Source: Bacteroidota bacterium (GTDB lineage: Bacteria > Bacteroidota > Bacteroidia > Bacteroidales > Paludibacteraceae). Taken from it: a stretch of 64,000 nucleotides of DNA. Positions 13,160 through 16,171 of this stretch are shown piece by piece. Both the position numbers and the translations under genes were made by a program. The number at the start of each line of letters is the position of its first letter. The stretch's first letter is position 1. The DNA lies in assembly GCA_021779195.1 (NCBI GenBank), contig JAJYBB010000006.1, positions 62,001 to 126,000 of the forward strand, given 5' to 3'. The notes beneath the pieces were generated by a model, which did not search any database, was not told the origin of the DNA, and worked only from the letters and a program-made list of their open reading frames with translations.

Positions 13160-14539
13160 TCAAGCATTTAAAAGAACTATCTCTCCGAAAAGAGTTGCCG
13201 AAGAGGCATTCGTAATTCTTACTCGAATTGTTTCACCGATATGCCTTCCGTTGCGTGAAAAAATAACTACCTTATTTTGAGATGTTCGTCCATACAACTG
13301 CTCTTTTGAACGTTTTGAGAATCCTTCAACTAAAACCTCAAATATTTTACCTACATCACGCTGATTACTTTCGTTAGATAAAATATTTTGAAAATCAATA
13401 ATTTCCGCTAAACGACGAAGTTTTATTTCTTCAGAAACATTATCCTTTAGATGTTTTGCAGCTTGAGTTCCAGGGCGTTCTGAATATTTAAACATAAAAG
13501 CCATATCGAAACTAACTTCGCGCATTAATGATAAAGTTAATCGATGATCCTCATCTGTCTCATCATGAAAACCACAGAACACGTCGGTACCAATTGTTGC
13601 ATCAGGTAAAATTCTGCGGATTGCAGCTATACGGTTCAAATACCACTCGCGGGTATATTTTCTGTTCATCAATTTTAAAATTTTATTGCTGCCTGATTGA
13701 ACTGGTAAATGTATAAACCGACATAAATTGGAATATTGAGCAATTGTCTCAAGTGTTCTGTCGCTCATATCCTTGGGGTGTGATGTAGTAAAACGGAATC
13801 GAATTTCGGGTGCAGCTTGAGCAACGACACGAAGCAAATCTGGAAACTCAATCACTTGCCCATCCTTCTCAAACCGATAAGAATTTACATTTTGACCAAG
13901 TAACGTTACTTCTTTGAAATGCTTTGATTTTAAATCGTTTAATTCAGATAAAATACTTTCGACATCACGGCTTCTCTCACGTCCACGCGTGTAAGGGACA
14001 ATGCAATATGAACAAAAGTTGTTGCACCCTCGCATAATAGAAATAAAACCTGAAATAGGATTACCAATTCGAGCAGGTAAAACATCACGATACGTTTCCG
14101 TTGATGAAAGTTGTACATTCAGTGCACTATTTCCCAATTCAACTTGCCCAATCAAGTGAGGAAGATCTAAATAGGCATCCGGACCGACAACAAGATTAAC
14201 CCCGAAATTATCAATAAGTTCATCTTTCACTCGTTCGGCCATACAGCCGATAACACCAACTATTAAATTTTTGTTTTTTCGTTTCAGCGATTTGAAAAAA
14301 TTCAAACGCTGAATTACTTTTTGCTCCGCATTATCTCGAATAGAACAAGTATTTACAAAAATAGCATCAGCTTCTGTAATTTTATCGGTAAGTTCAAAAC
14401 CATCCATTTTCATAATTGAAGCCACAACTTCGCTATCAGCCACATTCATTTGGCATCCATACGTTTCAATAAAAAGTTTTTTGTCGTTTAAAACGGATTT
14501 TAAGTCCGAAGGTACAACAGATTGATCAAAATTAGTCAT
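13160..14539 (-). CDS. miaB: tRNA-2-methylthio-N6-dimethylallyladenosine synthase
   Basis: This radical-SAM enzyme adds a methylthio group to i6A37 of tRNAs. The N-terminal domain carries the auxiliary cluster cysteines Cys29 (ETYGCQMN), Cys65 and Cys99. The SAM cluster is RGCNNFCSYC (Cys172, 176, 179), and a TRAM-like domain closes the C-terminus. I set the start at 14539 (MTNFDQ, 459 residues). The 43-residue extension to 14668 is hydrophobic, lies upstream of a promoter element and is not family-like. Confidence 0.95.
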   Translation of the reverse strand: MTNFDQSVVPSDLKSVLNDKKLFIETYGCQMNVADSEVVASIMKMDGFELTDKITEADAIFVNTCSIRDNAEQKVIQRLNFFKSLKRKNKNLIVGVIGCMAERVKDELIDNFGVNLVVGPDAYLDLPHLIGQVELGNSALNVQLSSTETYRDVLPARIGNPISGFISIMRGCNNFCSYCIVPYTRGRERSRDVESILSELNDLKSKHFKEVTLLGQNVNSYRFEKDGQVIEFPDLLRVVAQAAPEIRFRFTTSHPKDMSDRTLETIAQYSNLCRFIHLPVQSGSNKILKLMNRKYTREWYLNRIAAIRRILPDATIGTDVFCGFHDETDEDHRLTLSLMREVSFDMAFMFKYSERPGTQAAKHLKDNVSEEIKLRRLAEIIDFQNILSNESNQRDVGKIFEVLVEGFSKRSKEQLYGRTSQNKVVIFSRNGRHIGETIRVRITNASSATLFGEIVLLNA

Positions 14540-14565
14540 AAAGTTGAATATATAAAATGAAACTG

Positions 14566-14573
14566 CAAATTTA
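14566..14573 (-). promoter_or_regulatory. miaB promoter -7 element TAAATTTG
   Basis: This perfect TAnnTTTG on the minus strand lies 27 nt before the chosen miaB start and supports that start. Confidence 0.5.
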
Positions 14574-14731
14574 GCCCAAGCAAACGAAAATTCAAGATAA
14601 AAACAGAGAAAATTAACGGAATTATGAATTTTAAAAAAAAATAGATGAGAAAAATAGCACACTATCACTTTTAAACATTAAAATCAAAGAAAAAAATGCA
14701 TTTAAATATATTTAACATTCAAAATAATAGT

Positions 14732-14749
14732 TCATCAATATATTGATGA
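14732..14749. repeat. Perfect 18-bp palindrome
   Basis: TCATCAATA and TATTGATGA form a perfect inverted repeat with no spacer. It lies in gene-free DNA between miaB and the first RNA unit. Role is unknown; it could be an operator, or chance in AT-rich sequence. Confidence 0.4.
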
Positions 14750-14826
14750 TTAGATAGTTAAATAAACTAATCAAAAAGGAAAAACAAATGAATCACTGTA
14801 AAAAAGAAAATAAAATAAAGAAAAAG

Positions 14827-14857
14827 TTTGTATTATCAAAAAAAAATATCATTTTTG
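14827..14857 (+). promoter_or_regulatory. Promoter of candidate small RNA A (TTTG-N19-CATTTTTG)
   Basis: TTTG at 14827-14830, a 19-nt spacer, and CATTTTTG at 14850-14857. The -7 octamer differs from TAnnTTTG only at its first base, and the spacing is canonical for the Bacteroidota primary sigma factor. Confidence 0.65.
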
Positions 14858-14861
14858 CAGT

Positions 14862-14946
14862 GTAAACAAACAGATAAATTTTTCATAGTTAAGGTTTAGG
14901 TTAAAATGTGCAATGGGTGGCTGTGAAGTTACCCATTGTTTTTTTT
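14862..14946 (+). ncRNA. Candidate small RNA A (first of a tandem pair)
   Basis: A predicted transcript of about 85 nt runs from just after the promoter to a terminator hairpin. CAATGGGT (14911-14918) pairs with ACCCATTG (14931-14938) around a 12-nt loop, followed by nine T. It matches the unit at 15085-15169 at all but three positions (14871, 14873, 14910), while upstream and downstream flanks are unrelated. Homology therefore ends where a transcript would. UAAAC (14863-14867) could pair with GUUUA further on. I cannot assign it to a named RNA family; a known Bacteroidales RNA class is possible. Confidence 0.6.
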
Positions 14947-15072
14947 TAAAAGAAATGGTGAAACCTAATATCTGGCACCTACAATCAAGAACAAATATTA
15001 ATATATGAAAGATAATAATCAAAAAAAAACAAAAAAACAAGTTCAACAAATATCAAATTCAAAATAATCTCA

Positions 15073-15080
15073 TATCTTTG
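15073..15080 (+). promoter_or_regulatory. Promoter -7 element of candidate small RNA B (TATCTTTG)
   Basis: This perfect TAnnTTTG occupies the same position relative to the repeat as in unit A. No good -33 TTTG is seen. Confidence 0.6.
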
Positions 15081-15084
15081 CAAA

Positions 15085-15169
15085 GTAAACAAATAAATAA
15101 ATTTTTCATAGTTAAGGTTTAGGTTAAAATGTACAATGGGTGGCTGTGAAGTTACCCATTGTTTTTTTT
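15085..15169 (+). ncRNA. Candidate small RNA B (second of a tandem pair)
   Basis: This is the second copy of the unit at 14862-14946, exactly 223 bp downstream, with three differences in about 85 nt. The terminator hairpin (15134-15141 with 15154-15161) and the nine-T tail (15162-15170) are identical to copy A. No protein of useful length is encoded. A six-codon ATG frame (MYNGWL in B, MCNGWL in A) runs into the terminator stem, which could be chance. Likely an expressed small RNA; partners and function are unknown. Confidence 0.6.
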
Positions 15170-15170
15170 T

Positions 15171-15566
15171 ATCAATACGAAACAGAAAAATTCTCAATAG
15201 ATTCAATCGCTAAAACTTCGGAAAAAACTACCAAAGAAAATTCATTCCAAAAAGAATAAAGTATTATACTTAGATAAACCCTGAAAATGAGATTTATTCA
15301 ACAAGAAAAAAATGCAACTATAATAGGTTAATTATCATAATGTTATATATAAAACTCAAAAGAAGATCTATAATTTGGTATTAAAACTGACTTTTCGGAG
15401 TAGATTAATCCTTCTATTTCATCAGAAACAATTCGATATTTATAAATACATAAAAAAAATTATTATATAGCTATATATCAGCTATTTGATTATAACATTT
15501 TAAAAAACGATTAAAAAAAATCTCATCCGATATCAGGAAAAATGTTATTAAACACGAATAATGATA
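15171..15566. other. Gene-free AT-rich stretch between the RNA pair and the greA promoter
   Basis: Very AT-rich DNA with no open frame or hairpin terminator that I can support, and no third copy of the RNA unit. Confidence 0.5.
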
Positions 15567-15597
15567 TTTGTTGTTTCAAAAAAAGATCGTACATTTG
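15567..15597 (+). promoter_or_regulatory. Strong promoter upstream of greA (TTTG-N19-TACATTTG)
   Basis: TTTG at 15567-15570, exactly 19 nt of spacer, and TACATTTG at 15590-15597. This is the best full match to the Bacteroidota consensus in the window. Confidence 0.75.
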
Positions 15598-15629
15598 TAT
15601 TAAATAATTAGACATTGAGTTCGCATATA

Positions 15630-15661
15630 GAGTTCCGGCTTTCATGGTCGGAATTCTTTTT
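15630..15661 (+). terminator. Terminator-like hairpin in the greA leader
   Basis: GAGTTCCG (15630-15637) pairs with CGGAATTC (15649-15656; 8 bp, one G-U) around an 11-nt loop, followed by TTTTT. It lies between the promoter and greA. It could end a short RNA of about 55-60 nt, or attenuate greA. Confidence 0.55.
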
Positions 15662-15700
15662 GTTATATACATTGAAAAAAAACGAAAAAGGAGAAAAATT

Positions 15701-16171
15701 ATGGCAGTAACTTACATGACCGCAGAAGGTTATAAAAAATTAGTGGAGGAACTGAATGAGCTTGAACGCGTGCAACGTCCTGCCATCTCGAAACAAATAG
15801 CTGAAGCACGAGACAAAGGTGATTTGTCGGAAAATGCCGAATACGATGCCGCCAAAGAAGCTCAAGGGATGCTTGAAATGAAAATTTCGATGCTCAAAGA
15901 AACTATTTCTTCAGCACGCATGATAGATGAGTCAAAAATCAGAACTGATGAGGTCCAAATTTTGACACGAGTAAAAATTAAAAACACAAAGACGAATCAA
16001 ATTATGTCGTACATGATTGTATCTGAGAGTGAAGCAAATTTTAAAGAAGGTAAACTCTCTGTTACTACACCTATTGCCAAAGGATTACTTGGGAAAAAAG
16101 TAGGGCAGAAAACTACTGTACAGGTTCCTTCAGGAGCAATGGAATTCGAGATTATTGAGATTGGCCTTTAA
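15701..16171 (+). CDS. greA: Transcription elongation factor GreA
   Basis: GreA rescues backtracked RNA polymerase by stimulating transcript cleavage. The N-terminal coiled coil contains the conserved tip region RDKGDLSENAEYDAAKE, and the C-terminal FKBP-like domain ends in EFEIIEIGL. The frame opens at 15644, but I chose the ATG at 15701 (MAVTYMTAEGYKKL, 156 residues). A clear AAAAGGAGA Shine-Dalgarno sequence lies 6-7 nt before it, unusual for this phylum. A promoter and a terminator-like hairpin precede it. Confidence 0.95.
   Translation: MAVTYMTAEGYKKLVEELNELERVQRPAISKQIAEARDKGDLSENAEYDAAKEAQGMLEMKISMLKETISSARMIDESKIRTDEVQILTRVKIKNTKTNQIMSYMIVSESEANFKEGKLSVTTPIAKGLLGKKVGQKTTVQVPSGAMEFEIIEIGL

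Follow-up and report, generated by a model that had tools for sequence, protein, structure and literature searches.

The analysed window is a stretch of 64,000 nucleotides from a genome of 3.12 Mb in 48 contigs, whose genus is probably Paludibacter (Paludibacteraceae, Bacteroidales). A pair of short, nearly identical units lies between miaB and greA (15701-16171, plus strand). An earlier sequence-only reading had described this region as 1.1 kb without protein genes, and the distance from the miaB start at 14539 to the greA start at 15701 is indeed 1.16 kb. The following features were assigned:

13160..14539, minus strand: miaB, the divergent neighbour kept across Bacteroidales families (open reading frame, synteny)
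14827..14830, plus strand: -33 promoter element TTTG of copy 1 (sequence; TTTG columns 0.73-0.97 in the genus alignment)
14850..14857, plus strand: -7 promoter element CATTTTTG of copy 1, consensus TAnnTTTG (sequence; A and TTTG columns 0.97-1.0 in the genus alignment)
14862..14947, plus strand: small RNA copy 1, predicted transcript of about 82-86 nt (model R1 90.2 bits; FopS 30.6 bits)
14880..14903, plus strand: 24-nt core of copy 1, predicted pairing region (exact in at least 118 named stretches)
14911..14938, plus strand: terminator hairpin of copy 1 with GUGA tetraloop, T-run to 14947 (fold, terminator scan, covariation)
15073..15080, plus strand: -7 promoter element TATCTTTG of copy 2, perfect, the -33 TTTG being absent (sequence, alignment)
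15085..15170, plus strand: small RNA copy 2, predicted transcript (model R1 89.3 bits; FopS 29.8 bits)
15103..15126, plus strand: 24-nt core of copy 2 (core comparison, model R1)
15134..15161, plus strand: terminator hairpin of copy 2 with GUGA tetraloop, T-run to 15170 (fold, terminator scan)

Both units are 86 nt long, are offset by 223 bp and differ at three positions (96.5% identity), in agreement with the two units of about 85 nt that had been noticed in the sequence. The shared terminator was likewise as described: each copy ends in a 12-13-bp hairpin with a GUGA loop followed by nine T. The claim of a promoter directly before each unit stood in part, since copy 1 has both the -33 TTTG and the -7 box and copy 2 has the -7 box but lacks the -33 TTTG. 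In the alignment of the two copies the likeness ends at promoter and terminator, as had been stated for the surrounding DNA. A BLASTN search of the own genome at E<=0.001 returned these two copies only (E 4.5e-58 and 3.3e-38). A terminator scan of 14540-15700 found the two unit hairpins and one further hairpin before greA, where 0.1 would be expected from shuffled sequences. Folding of each unit was better than that of shuffles (z -3.3; 0/200 and 1/200 shuffles equal or better). For the 5' part the fold prediction gave weak structure only, and the core was predicted by RNAfold to be half paired (mean unpaired 0.50).

The hairpin before greA belongs to a leader of its own, with a -7 box TACATTTG (15590-15597), a hairpin GAGTTCCGGC...GTCGGAATTC and a T-run (15629-15657 and on), followed by greA. 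This leader hairpin pattern occurred in 36 of the 38 greA upstream regions fetched, which are partly non-independent, and looks like an attenuator of the kind known from greA of E. coli. In two Paludibacteraceae MAGs a unit was located upstream of greA, at about 100 nt in L167 (L167:7658) and about 200 nt in L106 (L106:465); miaB was not found in these two loci, the upstream sequence of L106 being short. In L167 the terminator of the unit takes the place that the greA leader hairpin occupies in other genomes.

A search of 60 related genomes gave matches to the unit with E below 1e-22 in 30 of the 36 members of the genus, own genome included. In these 30 Paludibacter genomes it is nearly invariant and its flanks vary. 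The genus alignment comprised 38 units from 30 Paludibacter loci, of which the column profile counts 37. Column identity was 0.95-1.0 over the first 48 nt and 0.3-0.7 in most flank columns outside the promoter, the promoter elements being kept. Across the genus the hairpin changes in a compensatory manner (CAATGGG/CCCATTG, CAAAGGG/CCCTTTG and GTAATGGG/CCCATTAC). A model, R1, was constructed from 16 chosen sequences, with the structure taken from the hairpin of copy 1. The core alignment held 15 of 33 distinct cores plus L074; among those left out were L076, which has no clear promoter or terminator, and L072, whose contig ends inside the tail. Among the 16 sequences of R1, changes on both sides were seen in 10 of 12 hairpin pairs, and 84% of cells were paired vs 68% in shuffles.

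Searching 40 Paludibacter genomes with R1 gave a match at E<=0.001 in 39. By our own reading the scores form two groups, one of 58-90 bits, which is the type of the window and occurs in 34 of the 40 genomes, and another of 39-51 bits; the window type is absent from six genomes of the genus. Copies within about 400 bp of each other on one contig occur in 7 of the 34 (G000, G001, G013, G025, G031, G034 and G820). Copy number of the subfamily in Paludibacter, a check proposed in the sequence-only reading, ranges from one to four, with three to four dispersed copies in G004, G030 and G033. Because the unit is nearly unchanged in 30 of 36 Paludibacter genomes, its flanks vary and its hairpin covaries, the window units are almost certainly small RNA genes.

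The core of this subfamily, 24 nt of sequence UUUUCAUAGUUAAGGUUUAGGUUA, is spread across Bacteroidales. This core, common to several families, overlaps the shared block (14877-14905 and 15100-15128) that had been proposed as a candidate pairing region. At least 118 stretches from named genomes contain the exact core, with Bacteroides, Phocaeicola, Mediterranea, Caecibacteroides, Barnesiella, Coprobacter and Paludibacter among the genera; Parabacteroides distasonis has it with one mismatch. A MAG labelled Porphyromonas cangingivalis (L150) carries a Paludibacter-type unit; its label and that of a Roseburia MAG (L164) may be wrong. Among the matches listed (118 loci, 123 sites), a GNRA tetraloop followed in 112 of 116 distinct tails and at least five T within the next 12 nt in 81 of the 116. 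A divergent miaB was located in the locus at 85 of the 123 sites listed and within 700 nt at 80. For the listed sites with more than 1.5 kb of upstream sequence, miaB was within 700 nt in 69/100 and not in 31/100. This count covers all 118 listed loci, another neighbour survey 80 of them. Within the genus, miaB was present in 23 of 29 loci. Among the best 30 R1 loci in whole genomes, own genome included, 26 had miaB, all divergent by coordinates, the exceptions being L216, L228, L229 and L231. The synteny check against related genomes thus bore out miaB as a frequent neighbour. The RefSeq records of P. distasonis and B. finegoldii also have an annotated miaB divergent from the unit. In these two records (L342, L343) a short hypothetical gene comes after the unit and then a gene for an acetyl-CoA hydrolase/transferase; both are labelled plasmids yet carry miaB. 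The window pair has the features that define the subfamily, namely the 24-nt core, the GNRA terminator and the divergent miaB.

At E<=0.01, R1 matched at least 140 of 393 Bacteroidales genomes; by our own count at least 42 genomes in 15 families reached 60 bits. In a phylum sample at least 6 of 395 genomes had a match at E<=0.001, five of them from the same order (own genome included) and one, G812, from outside it with 39.3 bits. The counts from these surveys and from the order survey with the FopS model are lower bounds, since 12-13 candidates per genome and stricter filters were applied. Another family of the order has two more strongly diverged relatives in tandem, with 140 bp between them (L077:1560 and 1700, G050).

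The Rfam search, which the sequence-only reading had also suggested, gave no match in the window at gathering scores. Under permissive limits both units align over their full length to FopS (RF04319) with 30.6 and 29.8 bits (E 0.007-0.036), below its gathering score of 56 by about 26 bits. No Rfam model was reached at gathering by the subfamily in the loci tested; RF04319 had 0 matches at gathering in 33 named subfamily loci (18 + 15). A canonical FopS exists elsewhere in the genome of the window (L237:1611-1685, minus strand; G000:C20, about 85610-85684; 72.7 bits with RF04319) and was reached through model R1 as a third locus. The window pair and FopS are therefore, judged by sequence, different branches that coexist in one genome. 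FopS was described in another family than the one to which this canonical copy belongs. The available text of the FopS report describes it as conserved within Bacteroidaceae (PMC11697453). The range of FopS exceeds this family, because RF04319, which matched 108 of 393 Bacteroidales genomes, was over the cut-off in 76, among which are further genera of the family to which the window belongs.

FopS of Bacteroides thetaiotaomicron and the window units are alike in the sigma-ABfr promoter, the GUGA-loop terminator, the occurrence in several copies and a 5' part with UUUUUCAU[A/G]GU and AGGUUAA boxes. The canonical -33/-7 promoter of the FopS type is seen in the genus alignment, copy 2 lacking the -33 element. 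A FopS-type (R1-like) 5' seed UUUUUCAUAGU is followed by the intrinsic terminator in both window units. They differ in the middle of the seed (UUAAGGUUU vs AUUAGAUUUA), FopS having UUUUUCAUGGUAUUAGAUUUAAGGUUAA and the window pair UUUUUCAUAGUUAAGGUUUAGGUUAA. Moreover, miaB was found beside none of 10 FopS loci nor beside the own-genome FopS copy, whereas the window subfamily is mostly miaB-linked. The accessible part of the FopS report gives 14 copies for B. thetaiotaomicron (PMC11697453), in contrast to one to four subfamily copies in Paludibacter. GibS (RF04182) shares the UUUUUCAUAGU start with the window units. As far as its published description was available, it is 145 nt long with a second seed R2, middle hairpins and promoter motif 2 (PMC7366714), unlike the window units, and its model was absent among their matches up to E 5. 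BTnc231 (RF04180) has UUUUUUUCAUAG and AGGUUAG boxes and a GUGA-loop hairpin as likeness, although its model has 154 positions and gave 19.4 and 23.6 bits against a gathering score of 80.4. The unit of B. salyersiae aligns to all three models, always below threshold (GibS 28.5 bits; cut-off 115), and this suggests that FopS, GibS, BTnc231 and the window subfamily form one superfamily.

On its sequence, the window pair is a member of a separate, miaB-linked subfamily of the FopS/GibS kind that has been little noticed. In the literature searched on Bacteroidales sRNAs (FopS, GibS, RbpB, Segatella), supplements aside, we found no description of a miaB-linked FopS relative; its B. thetaiotaomicron copy may already carry a number, either among the 14 FopS genes or as a different RNA. 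Gene anatomy, conservation, synteny and sub-threshold FopS homology are computational observations. Conservation bounded by promoter and terminator, hairpin compensation, homology to an sRNA family studied by experiment and miaB synteny make duplicated small RNA genes, already proposed from the sequence, the best reading; the FopS/GibS kinship is an addition to it.

The reverse complement of the core, UAACCUAAACCUUAACUAUGAAAA, looks like a Bacteroidota start region, and its UUUUUCAU part is antisense to AUGAAAAA, a frequent gene start in this phylum. In the stricter of the pairing tests, duplexes were compared with those of 300 dinucleotide-shuffled seeds on 52 susC, 53 susD-like and 70 other signal-peptide gene starts. 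These statistics are post hoc, with two gene classes, several seeds and related genes from three Paludibacter genomes. The susC starts were set by hand in the own genome and by the first ATG in G016 and G032, where the set comprised the loci for 30 of their susC matches; L053, having no start, was left out. For the window core, 1 of the 300 shuffled seeds was as low on susD-like starts and 16 on susC starts. The own FopS copy, serving as positive control, had 0/300 on susC and 1/300 on susD-like starts. Against 290 other own gene starts, drawn from about 13% of the genome, susC was favoured by the FopS copy (p 7e-6) and weakly by the window core (p 0.0015; both Mann-Whitney, shuffle-corrected). 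With the full 48-nt part, the own-genome susC value was p 0.005 on corrected scores and 0.09 on raw energies. When signal-peptide genes were the background, the susC preference had p 0.003 with FopS and 0.036 with the core. The susC preference was repeated with G016/G032 against the own background (FopS p 0.00013, core p 0.00025). For the core, susC had no advantage over the genes that follow it (p 0.88), and the 3' half of the core had no susC preference (p 0.21). With the core, susD-like starts were favoured over signal-peptide genes (p 0.0019 own, 3.7e-5 G016/G032) and, compared with other ATGAAA starts, gave p 0.056 in the own genome and 0.0066 in G016/G032. The susD signal of the 3' half of the core may reflect C-terminal SusC codons.

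Near-perfect pairing at gene starts was looked for in the own genome and not found. The pattern CCTAAACCTTAACTATGAAAAA with up to three mismatches hit the two units only, and the reversed-pattern control gave two. Searching CCTTAACTATGAAAAA with up to two mismatches yielded five further sites vs 12 in the control; these sites do not look like gene starts, since the frames from their ATG are 3-38 codons long. A bipartite target pattern, applied to 60 genomes, had a single match outside the units in the own genome. The strongest single duplex with the core (-22.1 kcal/mol) was at L238:4630 (G000:C4, plus strand), by its look the start of a mobile-element-like gene, which we take to be DUF3987-like; the search of other Paludibacter genomes did not recover this site. 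Taken together, PUL mRNAs are weakly supported as the favoured targets, the statistics giving modest support and naming no single target.

The reading that we favour, and consider somewhat probable, is that the units are paralogous trans-acting sRNAs of the miaB-linked FopS/GibS subfamily whose core pairs at PUL starts to block translation. Each unit would have its own promoter of the sigma-ABfr type and yield an RNA of about 85 nt, with a weakly structured 5' half containing the core UUUUUCAUAGUUAAGGUUUAGGUUA and then the GNRA-loop intrinsic terminator. By pairing around start codons in PUL mRNAs, those of susD-like genes and of susC, the core would keep ribosomes from entering. The transcription start of the miaB-divergent sRNA in B. 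thetaiotaomicron would be expected just 5' of the GAAAGAAACATTAG stretch. The FopS report, in its available text, describes pairing with the susC start region and block of translation in B. thetaiotaomicron, with RbpB as antagonist (PMC11697453). For GibS, pairing around start codons has been reported in the part available (PMC7366714). The genome of the window has one RRM_1 protein, possibly an RbpB relative, that could act as modulator. Transcription of the units, repression by them and their binding by RbpB are what we infer. Against this reading stand the FopS scores under the gathering value, the search for near-perfect targets that found none, the predicted half-paired state of the core, the missing -33 box of copy 2 and the six of 40 genus genomes that lack the window type. 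As a more speculative extension, which we regard as doubtful, the miaB-linked RNA might be a core-genome sRNA of Bacteroidales, older in position, that regulates susD, with dispersed FopS and GibS as expanded derivatives and FopS regulating susC. If so, two related RNAs would tune one susCD operon at its two starts.

Rather unlikely, in our judgement, is that the core is chiefly a protein-binding site. In that case the RNAs would act on the RRM protein RbpB, by titrating or modulating it, and could do without mRNA targets. The RRM_1 protein in the genome, the core being partly common to otherwise different sRNA groups and the lack of a single strong target would fit such a role. CLIP of RbpB on B. 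thetaiotaomicron sRNAs also led, in the accessible account, to FopS through a 41-nt motif; however, the same account gives only low micromolar affinity of RbpB for FopS and GibS (PMC11697453), and the core performs better than shuffled seeds on susD-like starts. We consider it improbable that the units act in cis, either as greA leader or attenuator or as antisense or divergent regulator of miaB. Their position between the two genes and the conserved miaB linkage would be explained in this way, as would the unit before greA in L167 and L106. However, greA starts about 530 nt past copy 2 behind its own -7 box and leader hairpin, and among the loci from outside Paludibacteraceae L094 alone was seen to contain greA. 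The start region of the own miaB pairs with the core at chance level (90/200 and 110/200 shuffled seeds as low), and of the 38 genus loci, each about 3 kb and dispersed copies included, 10 contain neither miaB nor greA.

A mobile repeat or phage-borne element with promoter and terminator by chance is highly improbable. The dispersed copies in three Paludibacter genomes and a FopS sequence in one phage, mentioned in the available text of PMC11697453, point in this direction. Against it, miaB synteny is frequent across families, the exact core is absent from viral contigs, phage records contain no similar sequence, and both matching plasmid records carry miaB beside the unit. Hardly credible is a short peptide gene: both copies contain an in-frame ATG and stop (copy 1 ATG TGC AAT GGG TGG CTG TGA, MCNGWL), but the stop is lost with the GGGA tetraloop in L024-L026, the frame is shifted in L028, L030 and L031, and the ATG is missing from some units, for example in B. 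fragilis and B. salyersiae. Minus-strand open reading frames over the units were also rejected, as they run against promoter, terminator and covariation.

The RNA family, known from gut bacteria, probably damps sugar-uptake genes, and the window units, part of a highly conserved branch of it, would extend the FopS-type RNA network to Paludibacter. A related subfamily with an exact 24-nt core and a frequent fixed neighbour spans several Bacteroidales families. In comparison with the 14 FopS copies of B. thetaiotaomicron, a single deletion beside miaB would provide a single-locus handle on post-transcriptional PUL control.
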